NCBI RefSeq assembly: GCF_001458175.1
Contig: NZ_CYPW01000004.1
Coordinates: 1 to 64,000, forward strand
Length of the DNA: 64,000 nt
Reading direction: 5' to 3'
DNA from: Shimia marina
GTDB lineage: Bacteria; Pseudomonadota; Alphaproteobacteria; Rhodobacterales; Rhodobacteraceae
Below the pieces are notes generated by a model. It did no database searches, was not told the origin of the DNA, and saw only the letters and a list, made by a program, of their open reading frames with translations. Within the stretch, counting starts at the first letter, position 1. Every line of letters begins with the position of its first letter. The position numbers and the translations under genes are program-made. This document shows, in pieces, positions 4,631 through 8,762 of this stretch.

Positions 4631-4762
4631 TGTGGTGCGCCCATGCGCCTTTCTCTCTGGAAGTTGATACCATTGTGCAGTCTTGCGGAGGTGTCTGTGC
4701 CTTGACCGAGGGCGGCGGCTTGGACAGGGTTGAGCAGGAGAATGAGGGAAGGACAGCGGCGT

Positions 4763-6442
4763 ATGCGGGGCTTGTGGCAGGGCAATTGGCGGGTGAAGAC
4801 GCGTATTGTGTCGGGGCTGATCCTGTTTGCCTATACGCTGTGGCATCTGATCAGTGTGGGGCTGGGGCTGTTCTCGGCGGAGTGGATGGAGCAGTCGCAG
4901 CGGGAGTTGTCGCGGCTGATCAGCAACCCTGTTGGTGGCGCGCTGCTCTACGGGGCGCTGCTGACGCATATGGGGCTTGCGCTGTATCGTCTGGCCATGC
5001 GGCGCACCTTGCGGATGCCGATGCATGAGGTTGCGCAGGTCATTTTGGGGGTGGCGATCCCATTTCTGGTGATGATCCATGTGGTGCACACCCGGTTTGC
5101 CACAAATTGGTTCGGTGTCGATCCTGATATGGGCTACATCACCGGGCTGATCTGGGACAGCAAGAGCGGCTGGCAGCAGGCAGCCTTGGTTCTGGTGGTT
5201 TGGATCCATGGCTGTATCGGGTTGCATATGTGGTTGCGGGTGGTGCCATGGTGGCGCAGGAACCTGCCGGTCTTGATGGGAGTGGCCAGCCTTTTTCCCG
5301 GCTTTGCCTTGGCGGGGTTTCTGACGCAGGGGCGCTTGCAGAAGCTGCGGTTGTTTGACCCGAACACAGGGGCGCAGCTGCGTGCGGATTATGGGTTTCC
5401 GACCGCAGAGGGCTTTGCCCGGCTGGCGGAGATCCACCGGATGGGGCTTGGCGTTTTTCTGGCGATTTTGGGCTGCGTGGCGACGATATATCTGGGGCGC
5501 AAGCTGCTTGGTGCGCGCCGGGCGGTGCGCATTCAATATGTGGATGGCCCCGAAATTCAGGGGCAGCCGGGGATGACGCTTTTGGAGATGTCGCGCACTG
5601 CCGGTGTGCCGCATATGGCGCTTTGCGGTGGGCGCGGGCGGTGCACGACCTGTCGTGTGATCGTTGAGGCGGGTCTTGAGGCGCTGCCGACAGCAGCGGC
5701 CAGCGAAGCCGCCAGTCTGGCGGCGGTGAATGCGCCCCCCAACGCGCGGCTGGCCTGTCAGTTGCGCCCCAAGGAGCCCGCCACGGTTTTGCGGGTTTAT
5801 CGAAGCGACGGACAGCAGGCGCGGGCGCATCAGAGCCTTGGGCAGGAGCGTCAGATGGCGATCCTGTTTCTGGACATGCGTGGGTTCACAGCGCGGACGA
5901 CAGGGCAGTTGCCCTATGATGTGGTTTTCCTTCTGAACCGGTTTTTTGACGCGATTGTGCCGTCGATCACCGGCGCCGGTGGCACGGTGGACAAATATCT
6001 CGGGGATGGGTTGCTGGCGGTGTTTGAGCAGGAAGATGAGGCGGCCAGCGCGCGGGCCGCCATGGAAGCCGCGATTGGCATCAGCTCTGCACTGGCAACA
6101 TTCAATCAGGCGCTGCGATCGGAAAAGGCGCAGCCGGTGGCGATTGGCATGGGGGTGCATTCCGGCACTTTGGTTATTGGGGAAATTGGCGCCGCACAGC
6201 ATGCGCCGCGCACGATCATTGGTGATACGGTGAATGCAGCCAGTCGTCTGGAGGGCGCGACCAAGGAGCTTGGGGTGGAGCTTTTGGTGTCTGAAAGTGC
6301 GTTGCGGGCTGTGGGGCAGGATGTGGATGTGCTGGATCTTGAGATTCTTGAGCTGCGCGGCGTCGCTGAACCGATGCTGGCGCTGCCGGTGCAGATTGGC
6401 AGTGACTTGCGTGAAATCCTGATGCCTGCCGCTGTGGCGTGA
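4763..6442 (+). CDS. CyaC-type redox-linked adenylate cyclase: membrane anchor, [2Fe-2S] ferredoxin and class III cyclase
   Basis: Residues about 1-245 form a six-helix membrane anchor rich in histidines (H28, H69, H106, H109, H149, H155), resembling diheme cytochrome b anchors of succinate dehydrogenase type. Residues 255-345 are a plant-type ferredoxin domain with cysteines C288, C294, C297 and C332. Residues 365-550 are a class III cyclase with metal-binding D371 and D415, specificity Lys 411 and the transition-state motif NAASRLE. This is the architecture of Sinorhizobium CyaC, reported as quinone-responsive. The frame is open from a TTG at 4730; GGGAAGGA precedes the ATG at 4763, so I start there. 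All catalytic residues are intact, so cAMP output tuned by respiratory redox state is likely. Confidence 0.88.
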   Translation: MRGLWQGNWRVKTRIVSGLILFAYTLWHLISVGLGLFSAEWMEQSQRELSRLISNPVGGALLYGALLTHMGLALYRLAMRRTLRMPMHEVAQVILGVAIPFLVMIHVVHTRFATNWFGVDPDMGYITGLIWDSKSGWQQAALVLVVWIHGCIGLHMWLRVVPWWRRNLPVLMGVASLFPGFALAGFLTQGRLQKLRLFDPNTGAQLRADYGFPTAEGFARLAEIHRMGLGVFLAILGCVATIYLGRKLLGARRAVRIQYVDGPEIQGQPGMTLLEMSRTAGVPHMALCGGRGRCTTCRVIVEAGLEALPTAAASEAASLAAVNAPPNARLACQLRPKEPATVLRVYRSDGQQARAHQSLGQERQMAILFLDMRGFTARTTGQLPYDVVFLLNRFFDAIVPSITGAGGTVDKYLGDGLLAVFEQEDEAASARAAMEAAIGISSALATFNQALRSEKAQPVAIGMGVHSGTLVIGEIGAAQHAPRTIIGDTVNAASRLEGATKELGVELLVSESALRAVGQDVDVLDLEILELRGVAEPMLALPVQIGSDLREILMPAAVA

Positions 6443-6474: not shown

Positions 6475-6520
6475 CGCCGGTGGATGAAATAATGCTTTGA
6501 GAAATCGAGATCACAACATA

Positions 6521-6540
6521 TGTGTTCATGCGTGAACACA
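6521..6540. promoter_or_regulatory. Perfect 8-4-8 palindrome, candidate MarR-type operator
   Basis: TGTGTTCA-TGCG-TGAACACA is an exact inverted repeat of 8 bases with a 4-base spacer. It lies directly before the MarR-domain coding sequence and overlaps the alternative GTG and ATG starts at 6522 and 6528, which argues for translation starting downstream at 6558. Autoregulation by the MarR domain is inferred from position and symmetry. Confidence 0.6.
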
Positions 6541-6557
6541 CTTTGAGTCGTTTGTTG

Positions 6558-8633
6558 ATGTCGTTGCAGACCACAAATCCCAAGTCCGATGAGGAAGACC
6601 TGCTCTTCCGGCTCCTGCGCCAGCTAGATGTTGCGCCGGAAGCTTCTCAGCGCGCCACCGCGGCGGCGGTGGGCATCTCGCTGGGGCGGTTGAACGCGCA
6701 ATTGCGTGCAGCGGCGGATGCCGGGCTGATCACCATTAGTGATCGTGCTGGCCCGGACAAGCGACAGAGGTTTGCCTATTCACTGACCGCGCGCGGCGCA
6801 GTGGAGAAAGTGCGGCTCACAGATCAATTCCTCGCCCGCAAACTTGCAGAGTATGACGCGCTGCATGCGGAACTGACAGGCTCGGCAAGCGGCCTCGTCC
6901 CTATCAAACACAGGACACATCCAATGCAAAATAATCTGGCTCCGATTCCTGAGCTTTATGTCTCCTATGAGAGCGCTCAGAAGCTGAAAGTCGAAGCGGG
7001 TGATCTGGTCAGCTGGGATCTGACCCCCCGCCAGATCTGCGATCTGGAACTTTTGATGAATGGCGGCTTCAACCCGCTCAAGGGCTTCCTGACCGAAGAA
7101 GACTATGACGGTGTTGTGGAAAACATGCGTCTGGCGGACGGCTCTCTGTGGCCCATGCCGATCACTCTGGACGTGAACGAAGATTTTGCTGCGTCTCTGG
7201 AAGCGGGCCAGGACATCGCGCTGCGCGATCAGGAAGGCGTGATCCTCGCCACCATGACCGTGACCGACAACTGGGTGCCAAACAAAGCGCGCGAAGCCGA
7301 AAAAGTGTTTGGTGCGGACGATGATGCGCACCCAGCGGTGAACTACCTGCACAACCACGCGGGCAAAGTATACCTCGGCGGCCCGGTGACCGGCATCCAG
7401 CAGCCTGTGCACTATGACTTCCGCGCCCGTCGCGACACACCAAATGAGCTGCGCGCCTATTTCCGTAAAATGGGCTGGCGCAAAGTGGTTGCGTTTCAGA
7501 CACGTAACCCGCTGCACCGCGCGCACCAGGAGCTGACCTTCCGCGCCGCCAAAGAAGCGCAGGCCAACCTGCTGATCCACCCTGTTGTGGGCATGACCAA
7601 GCCGGGCGATGTGGATCACTTCACCCGCGTGCGCTGCTATGAGGCGGTTCTGGACAAATATCCTCAATCCACCACCTCCATGTCCCTGCTGAACCTGGCG
7701 ATGCGCATGGCGGGCCCACGTGAGGCGGTCTGGCATGGTCTGATCCGCGCCAACCACGGCTGCACCCACTTCATCGTTGGCCGCGACCACGCTGGCCCCG
7801 GCAAGAACTCCGCAGGCGAAGACTTCTACGGCCCATATGATGCACAGGACCTGTTCCGCGCGCATCAGGAAGAAATCGGCATCGAAATGGTCGACTTCAA
7901 ACACATGGTGTGGGTGCAGGAGCGCGCGCAGTATGAGCCTATGGATGAAATTCAGGACAAAGACGATGTCACCATCCTGAACATCTCCGGCACCGAGCTG
8001 CGCCGCCGTCTGGCCGAAGGTCTGGAAATCCCTGAGTGGTTCTCCTTCCCTGAGGTGGTGACAGAGCTGCGCAAAACCAAGCCGCCACGCGCGCAGCAGG
8101 GTTTCACCGTGTTCTTCACCGGCTTCTCCGGCTCCGGCAAATCCACCATCGCAAACGCGCTGATGGTGAAGCTGATGGAAATGGGTGGTCGTCCTGTAAC
8201 GCTTCTGGATGGCGACATCGTGCGTAAGAACCTCAGCTCCGAGCTGGGCTTCTCCAAAGAGCACCGTGACCTCAACATCCGCCGTATCGGCTATGTGGCT
8301 TCCGAGATCACCAAAAACGGTGGTATCGCGATCTGTGCGCCAATCGCGCCTTATGCCACCACCCGCCGCGCCGTGCGCGAAGACATCGAAGCTTTCGGTG
8401 CCTTTGTGGAAGTCCACGTGGCGACCTCGATTGAGGAATGTGAACGCCGTGACCGCAAAGGCCTCTACAAGCTGGCGCGGGAAGGTAAGATCAAAGAGTT
8501 CACCGGTATCTCCGATCCATATGATGTGCCTGTTGATCCAGAGCTGAGCCTTGAAACCGAAGGCACCGATGTGGACAACTGCGCCCATCAGGTGATCCTG
8601 AAGCTGGAAAGCATGGGTCTGATCTCCGGCTGA
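6558..8633 (+). CDS. EPS-associated MarR domain joined in frame to bifunctional sulfate adenylyltransferase / APS kinase
   Basis: One uninterrupted frame encodes three parts. The first ~110 residues match MarR EPS-associated regulators (SQRATAAAVGISLGRLNAQL, then LTDQFLARKLAEYDALHAEL). From the internal ATG at 6924 come 569 residues identical in length to a normal Sat-CysC enzyme: ATP sulfurylase with QTRNPLHRAHQEL and GRDHAGPG, then APS kinase with P-loop GFSGSGKST. The enzyme makes APS and PAPS from sulfate for assimilation or sulfation, in the cytoplasm. An AGGACA box precedes the ATG at 6924, so the enzyme could also be made alone. Start choices 6522 (GTG), 6528 and 6558 are all open; I prefer 6558 because the palindrome covers the earlier ones. 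No in-frame stop separates the parts, so a genuine fusion, or a lost stop codon, is possible. Confidence 0.82.
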   Translation: MSLQTTNPKSDEEDLLFRLLRQLDVAPEASQRATAAAVGISLGRLNAQLRAAADAGLITISDRAGPDKRQRFAYSLTARGAVEKVRLTDQFLARKLAEYDALHAELTGSASGLVPIKHRTHPMQNNLAPIPELYVSYESAQKLKVEAGDLVSWDLTPRQICDLELLMNGGFNPLKGFLTEEDYDGVVENMRLADGSLWPMPITLDVNEDFAASLEAGQDIALRDQEGVILATMTVTDNWVPNKAREAEKVFGADDDAHPAVNYLHNHAGKVYLGGPVTGIQQPVHYDFRARRDTPNELRAYFRKMGWRKVVAFQTRNPLHRAHQELTFRAAKEAQANLLIHPVVGMTKPGDVDHFTRVRCYEAVLDKYPQSTTSMSLLNLAMRMAGPREAVWHGLIRANHGCTHFIVGRDHAGPGKNSAGEDFYGPYDAQDLFRAHQEEIGIEMVDFKHMVWVQERAQYEPMDEIQDKDDVTILNISGTELRRRLAEGLEIPEWFSFPEVVTELRKTKPPRAQQGFTVFFTGFSGSGKSTIANALMVKLMEMGGRPVTLLDGDIVRKNLSSELGFSKEHRDLNIRRIGYVASEITKNGGIAICAPIAPYATTRRAVREDIEAFGAFVEVHVATSIEECERRDRKGLYKLAREGKIKEFTGISDPYDVPVDPELSLETEGTDVDNCAHQVILKLESMGLISG

Positions 8634-8657: not shown

Positions 8658-8688
8658 AGAGGCCCGCAGCTGTTGCGGGCCTCTTTTT
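8658..8688 (+). terminator. Rho-independent terminator after sat-cysC
   Basis: An 11-bp stem AGAGGCCCGCA / TGCGGGCCTCT with a 5-base loop is followed by a T run. Confidence 0.92.
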
Positions 8689-8762
8689 GTGACTGGCTTG
8701 GGGACAGAGCAACGTCGTACATGGGGATTGACGCGTTGCCTGTGCTTGCCAGTGAGGGGAGG

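Follow-up and report, generated by a model that had tools for sequence, protein, structure and literature searches.

A MarR-like domain fused to the sulfate-activating enzyme Sat-CysC in Shimia marina: a putative self-regulating enzyme with two translation starts

In the analysed stretch of the Shimia marina genome (64,000 nucleotides, here called the window), a MarR-like DNA-binding domain is joined in a single reading frame to Sat-CysC, the enzyme that activates sulfate. We suggest that the gene probably encodes a trigger enzyme that regulates itself, one frame giving a major 569-residue enzyme and a minor 691-residue enzyme-repressor. Comparison across genomes of the family establishes the fusion, the signal for an internal translation start and the operator ahead of the gene, and shows that the three occur together at the level of sequence. 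The features to which the text refers are as follows (window positions, strand, description).

6495..6500, forward: promoter-like hexamer CTTTGA (consensus CTTTGC/CTTTCC-like), 24-29 nt before the operator core; putative promoter element
6521..6540, no strand assigned: operator palindrome TGTGTTCA-TGCG-TGAACACA, both arms exact; core GTTCA-N4-TGAAC at 6524-6537
6540..6549, forward: leader ACTTTGAGTC, conserved in the nucleotide profile; within it, GAG may serve the long form as a weak Shine-Dalgarno sequence
6558..8633, forward: long form MarR-Sat-CysC, 691 aa, with ATG 6558 as the probable start; GTG 6522 lies in the operator
6591..6875, forward: MarR-like winged-helix domain (TIGR04176 match), long-form residues 12-106, with a C-terminal helix at 78-107
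6876..6923, forward: linker TGSASGLVPIKHRTHP, 16 codons, flexible (low model confidence), which holds the internal ribosome-binding site
6912..6915, forward: internal Shine-Dalgarno sequence AGGA, 8 nt before ATG 6924, found in 57/58 fusions
6924..8633, forward: short form Sat-CysC (ATP sulfurylase and APS kinase), 569 aa, own start ATG 6924
8658..8689, forward: GC hairpin and T run resembling an intrinsic terminator, located by eye

The fused frame and its internal start

The original prediction held that a MarR domain runs without a stop into Sat-CysC and that the enzyme has an internal ATG with a ribosome-binding site of its own. Both statements are borne out: the frame at 6522-8633 (forward strand) is open for 703 codons, a profile search finds a MarR_EPS-like domain (TIGR04176) and Sat-CysC (NF004040) within it, and AGGA stands 8 nt upstream of ATG 6924. 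The enzyme part scores 1046.9 bits against NF004040 (cutoff 669) over model positions 4-571 of 572, and we therefore assign it to Sat-CysC; its relatives in the PDB are the fungal ATP sulfurylases 1i2d and 1m8p, which match best, and 2gks and 3cr8. The P-loop motif GFSGSGKST and the motif RNPLHRAH are legible in the frame. The MarR part falls just below the curated cutoff of the MarR_EPS equivalog model (88 bits), scoring 81.8 bits with the whole frame and 86.4 with the domain alone. In the AlphaFold model, this part (mean pLDDT 85.3) is predicted to be a winged helix followed by a long C-terminal helix and then by the low-confidence linker. Foldseek gives 24 matches to it with E<=0.001, of which nearly all have MarR family in their titles and the best is 3k0l (E 8.4e-5); by target-normalised TM, Sso10a-2 (4hw0) ranks first of the 50 matches listed, at 0.75. 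The predicted fold is thus that of the MarR superfamily. The full-length model has a mean pLDDT of 47.9, at which no contact between the domains is visible. With an enzyme and a predicted DNA-binding domain in one chain, the protein has the composition of a trigger enzyme.

The first possible start of the frame, GTG 6522, sits within the operator palindrome. At least seven of the 25 loci from the same genus (L011-L014, L016, L018, and L023) have an in-frame stop after the operator core and ahead of the ATG that follows. We therefore consider ATG 6558, which is 17 nt 3' of the 20-mer operator, the more likely start of the long form, giving a fusion of 691 residues.

The internal start is preserved to a degree that the protein sequence does not demand. 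AGGA-N8-NTG occurs at the homologous place in 57 of 58 fusions from the family, the AGGA beginning 12 nt before the start codon; the exception is L065, which has CGGA, and in L082 the signal is shifted by one codon with its spacing unchanged. Of 585 in-frame codon positions, no other one shows the pattern in any fused sequence and in none of 20 unfused Sat-CysC genes searched by script. The arginine codon at the Shine-Dalgarno column is AGG in 56/57 cases, a codon that accounts for 77 of the 2644 arginine codons overall (this column included), and the base that follows is A in 58/58, even though the residue it helps to encode varies between T, S, N, M, and I. The start codon is ATG or GTG in all 58 fusions (GTG twice). 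Among the loci of the best 80 of 286 relatives by similarity (a set that overlaps the Shimia genomes and is not independent of L001-L028), 79 have AGGA-N8-[AG]TG and one AGGA-N8-TTG; the codon thus varies within ATG, GTG, and TTG only, while the residue varies between M, V, and L. The ribosome-binding site and start codon are kept at the nucleotide level, and this pattern of conservation points to selection on the ribosome-binding site and not only on the protein. Compared with other windows of the gene, the 51-nt region around the internal start also has much less structure (median z 2.27, n=58), and the region around the MarR start resembles it in this (1.97, n=56). Pairing with the anti-Shine-Dalgarno sequence extends over 4-5 nt at the internal start in 57/58 fusions and over 3 nt at the MarR start in 45/56. 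It had been proposed that one frame might yield two products; conservation of the internal start across tens of genera makes this very likely.

The operator and its other occurrences

The palindrome predicted to stand before the gene is present with exact arms, and its core is conserved ahead of the fused genes. Allowing up to three mismatches, the window contains two sites of the TGTGTTCA-TGCG-TGAACACA type, against 0.18 expected. A script finds GTTCA-N4-TGAAC ahead of 56 of the 58 family fusions; of the remaining two, one is cut by a contig end (L074) and the other has one mismatch (L080). All 80 loci of the best 80 relatives, the set that overlaps the Shimia genomes, have the core. Within 600 nt of unfused Sat-CysC genes, it is found in 0/34 loci (14 of the 30 returned by a search and 20 picked from the list, several with long upstream frames). 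A nucleotide profile built from 104 dereplicated loci out of 136 fused ones, with 32 left out, and aligned on the operator shows a CTTTGC-like element at -29, with T at 97% and 93% at -28 and -27, then an ATG element that abuts the operator, then ACACTTTGAGTCG. The operator would thus overlap a promoter-like region. Three loci (L092, L094, and L099) have a second copy of the operator some 48-50 bp upstream of the first.

The same palindrome precedes stand-alone MarR_EPS genes. We assembled 14 of the 45 weaker matches from the family scan and 12 of 20 plasmid matches, which, with one identical pair, gave 25 distinct genes. GTTCA-N4-TGAAC lies about 80-120 nt upstream of 12 of these (L105, L110, L114, L275, L277-L283, and L285), where chance would give about 0.014 sites in 25 windows of 330 nt at the Shimia marina rate of 7 sites per 4.0 Mb; the strict palindrome is missing from the other 13. 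By source, it is found with 9/12 plasmid genes and 4/14 genes from the family scan. All four of the MarR_EPS regions that were viewed widely hold polysaccharide genes. As the palindrome is shared between the fusions and the stand-alone genes, the MarR domain probably reads the operator, and part of the MarR_EPS family probably binds GTTCA-N4-TGAAC.

Elsewhere in the genome, the strict site is sparse. Shimia marina has seven sites and none of a control pattern; four other Shimia genomes have 2, 3, 7, and 6 sites against 1, 2, 1, and 2 of the control, so most sites away from sat are near chance. The site of sat is the only one that all five Shimia genomes in the comparison share. Five of the six further sites in Shimia marina lie inside open frames, those of an infC-like gene (identified by eye), SecB, an aminotransferase, a periplasmic binding protein, and a Mg-chelatase subunit. 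The sixth, the only other one outside coding sequence, is just before ggt, which encodes gamma-glutamyltranspeptidase (G000:C17:28254-28267; L151 1501-1514). It is strict in one of 24 comparable Shimia genomes, S. marina itself (L301 is not comparable), and we have set ggt aside as a weak candidate for a further target. By eye, a degenerate TTCACATGTGAA-like palindrome stands before ggt in six near relatives (L288-L293, with a mismatch in one of them), and a role for ggt as a second, sulfur-related target is possible.

The original prediction further placed sulfate activation under a polysaccharide regulator, and this is the part that did not hold; the continuous polypeptide, the operator in front of it, and the two products stand. 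The MarR domain is below the MarR_EPS cutoff, and the gene is not a stand-alone gene in a polysaccharide locus: it is fused to Sat-CysC and its neighbours in the window, judged by eye, are adenylate cyclase-like, thioredoxin reductase-like, and fasciclin-like, with no genes for extracellular polysaccharide (EPS). A profile search of the Shimia marina genome finds one Sat-CysC match only, and profile scans find no stand-alone MarR_EPS gene. The sole PF01507 match is a CysH-like reductase beside genes that by eye resemble those of sulfite reductase, so no CysD is seen in the genome. With one copy of Sat-CysC and no CysD, the fusion appears to be the only route of sulfate activation in this genome and looks like a general enzyme of sulfate assimilation. 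A link to sulfated polysaccharides is not supported. A weaker form of the idea survives, in that the operator is also frequent at true MarR_EPS genes that neighbour polysaccharide genes. The gene just upstream of the fusion, at 4730-6442, seems by eye to combine a membrane segment with a 2Fe-2S ferredoxin-like stretch and a class III adenylate cyclase.

Distribution and descent of the fusion

When the joint was sought in other Rhodobacteraceae, as had been suggested, it was found to be widespread. By profile scan, 58 of the 295 family genomes, from 57 of 294 genera, have the fusion; in each of them the domain scores >130 bits and shares one open frame with Sat-CysC, and the frame in G080 runs off a contig end. 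None of the 58 frames contains a stop. The other 45 matches in the family, all at <=95 bits, are separate frames of 119-335 aa. An earlier scan of 60 relatives had found the fusion in 25/25 members of the genus and in three further genera. In a scan of 385 genomes of the class (E<=1e-15), 16 genomes matched, with no fusion beyond the two Shimia already known; the frames in the other 14 are 108-286 aa long, too short for a fusion. The gene is also present, 85% identical to the query, in a contig titled Nocardioides marinus (L191); the assembly is probably Leisingera-like and mislabelled.

The 58 fused MarR domains fall on one side of a branch and 14 stand-alone domains on the other (SH-aLRT 100, by a quick method with few columns), and a single clade fits one origin of the fused MarR domain. 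Its sequence is under purifying selection, with dN/dS values among the 25 Shimia genomes of 0.076 (MarR part; 234/300 pairs usable), 0.096 (linker), and 0.046 and 0.034 (enzyme).

Sat-CysC is present at E<=1e-200 in 159/198 family genomes and is fused in 36 of these 159. On a tree of 57 fused and 34 unfused Sat-CysC rows, the two kinds are scattered, with 17 changes, at least four of which are forced by starred branches; the tree, built to count gains and losses, is poorly resolved (32/88 inner branches open). The scatter implies that loss or transfer has occurred and, taken with the proportion of Sat-CysC genomes that have the fusion, that the fusion is dispensable in many lineages.

Proposed mechanism and relation to known systems

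We propose that one transcript would begin at or near the operator. The weak ribosome-binding site at ATG 6558 would give a minor amount of the 691-residue MarR-Sat-CysC, and the stronger, open internal site at ATG 6924 a major amount of the 569-residue Sat-CysC; the relative strength of the two starts is judged from their sequences. Both forms would contain the same sulfate-activating enzyme, and the dose of regulator would be set by translation. The long form, probably a dimer joined by its long helix, by the enzyme part, or by both, would bind GTTCA-N4-TGAAC over the transcription start, thereby repressing its own gene, a role suggested by the position of the operator. The enzyme part would act as the sensor, so that accumulated product shuts off sulfate activation. 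Fungal ATP sulfurylase is allosterically controlled by PAPS, and for this reason we name PAPS as the likeliest ligand. We infer two cellular proteins, their amounts, repression, the oligomers, and the ligand. In an excerpt of one report, the values for the SAT gene of R. pomeroyi (0.44-2.42) do not bear the significance mark that cysJI and cysH bear (PMC9769926); we count this against the model, and the gene in question may be unfused.

Several other readings have to be weighed. It is very unlikely that only the 691-residue fusion is made and that AGGA with the rare AGG codon slows the ribosome and lets one domain fold before the next, with no initiation at 6924. The site does lie within the interdomain linker and the codon is indeed rare, at 77/2644; however, pausing needs neither a start codon at a fixed spacing of 8 nt, swapped for GTG or TTG only, nor an unstructured region resembling that of the MarR start. 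The converse, in which the 569-residue Sat-CysC is the sole functional product, 6924 is the real start, and the MarR frame is little translated or serves for coupling only, is also improbable. The internal ribosome-binding site looks the better of the two and unfused relatives make the same enzyme, but the MarR domain is kept, to judge from its dN/dS and its confident winged-helix model, and the frame crosses the 16-codon linker without a stop in 58/58 fusions.

A polysaccharide regulator could control the supply of PAPS for sulfated EPS, with EPS regulators and the fusion binding each other's promoters through shared operators. This agrees with the frequent occurrence of the operator at stand-alone MarR_EPS genes near polysaccharide genes and with the presence of both kinds of gene in seven family genomes (G190, G209, G213, G238, G250, G265, and G284); we nevertheless hold it to be improbable, as Shimia marina has no detected stand-alone MarR_EPS gene, its single Sat-CysC match is accompanied by a CysH-like reductase, and its six other strict sites comprise five in open frames and the one before ggt. 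Unlikely too, if a little less so, is a fusion that activates instead of represses or that regulates further promoters as well. The strict site directly before ggt would speak for a wider regulator, yet its restriction to one of the 24 comparable Shimia genomes speaks against it, and the operator borders directly on the conserved ATG element and the presumed transcription start, the usual position for a repressor. We therefore retain the self-repressing trigger enzyme as the probable reading. A broader version is more tentative and, in our judgement, doubtful: a design common to the family, in which a self-repressing sulfate-activating enzyme, the ratio of two starts, and mixed oligomers that read the product pool are combined with an operator shared with EPS regulators, so that polysaccharide synthesis and sulfate activation would be wired through one DNA site where both kinds of gene are present.

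Parts of this arrangement are familiar. The enzyme of the window is a full-length match to Sat-CysC as represented by NF004040, 2gks, 3cr8, and the fungal 1i2d and 1m8p, and differs from its NF004040 kin by the N-terminal MarR domain, the operator, and the conserved internal start; the operator is absent from the 34 unfused members of the family examined. With MarR_EPS (TIGR04176), it shares the domain (22/22 fused domains scanned match) and the identical palindrome seen before 12/25 stand-alone genes, whereas it falls below the curated cutoff, is fused to an enzyme, and belongs to a separate clade. Like the trigger enzymes PutA, BirA, and NadR, it combines a metabolic enzyme with a DNA-binding domain; for PutA, binding is reported at the putA/putP spacer only (excerpts of PMC8249747 and PMC5343134). 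Both the enzyme and the DNA-binding family are other than in these three proteins as there described, and the second, internal start, which would give the enzyme without its DNA-binding part, also sets the window gene apart from them as far as those descriptions go. The PAPS reductase of Tuber melanosporum is likewise a sulfur-assimilation enzyme, reported as a transcription activator (excerpt of PMC4848566); in contrast, it is a moonlighting enzyme from a fungus and belongs to a later step, and the excerpt mentions neither a MarR fusion nor a second start. AerR of purple bacteria resembles the window gene in having two isoforms that differ N-terminally and in regulatory effect, but it is a photoreceptor whose forms differ by 41 residues according to the excerpt of PMC6199135, where the window gene would gain or lose a whole DNA-binding domain. 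Among the matches listed in a search of titles and abstract openings in the open-licence literature, we found no sulfate-activation enzyme with a DNA-binding domain of its own, absence there being no proof, and no trigger enzyme with a built-in second start. Trigger enzymes, sulfur enzymes that act in transcription, and regulators with two isoforms are known kinds; none of the titles and abstract openings listed combines Sat-CysC, a MarR domain, an operator, and a second start.

If the model is correct, it would provide a testable answer to the question of how many marine Rhodobacteraceae control entry into sulfate assimilation, and it would suggest a DNA site for the MarR_EPS family. It would also mean that annotation from either start alone misses one of the products of the gene.
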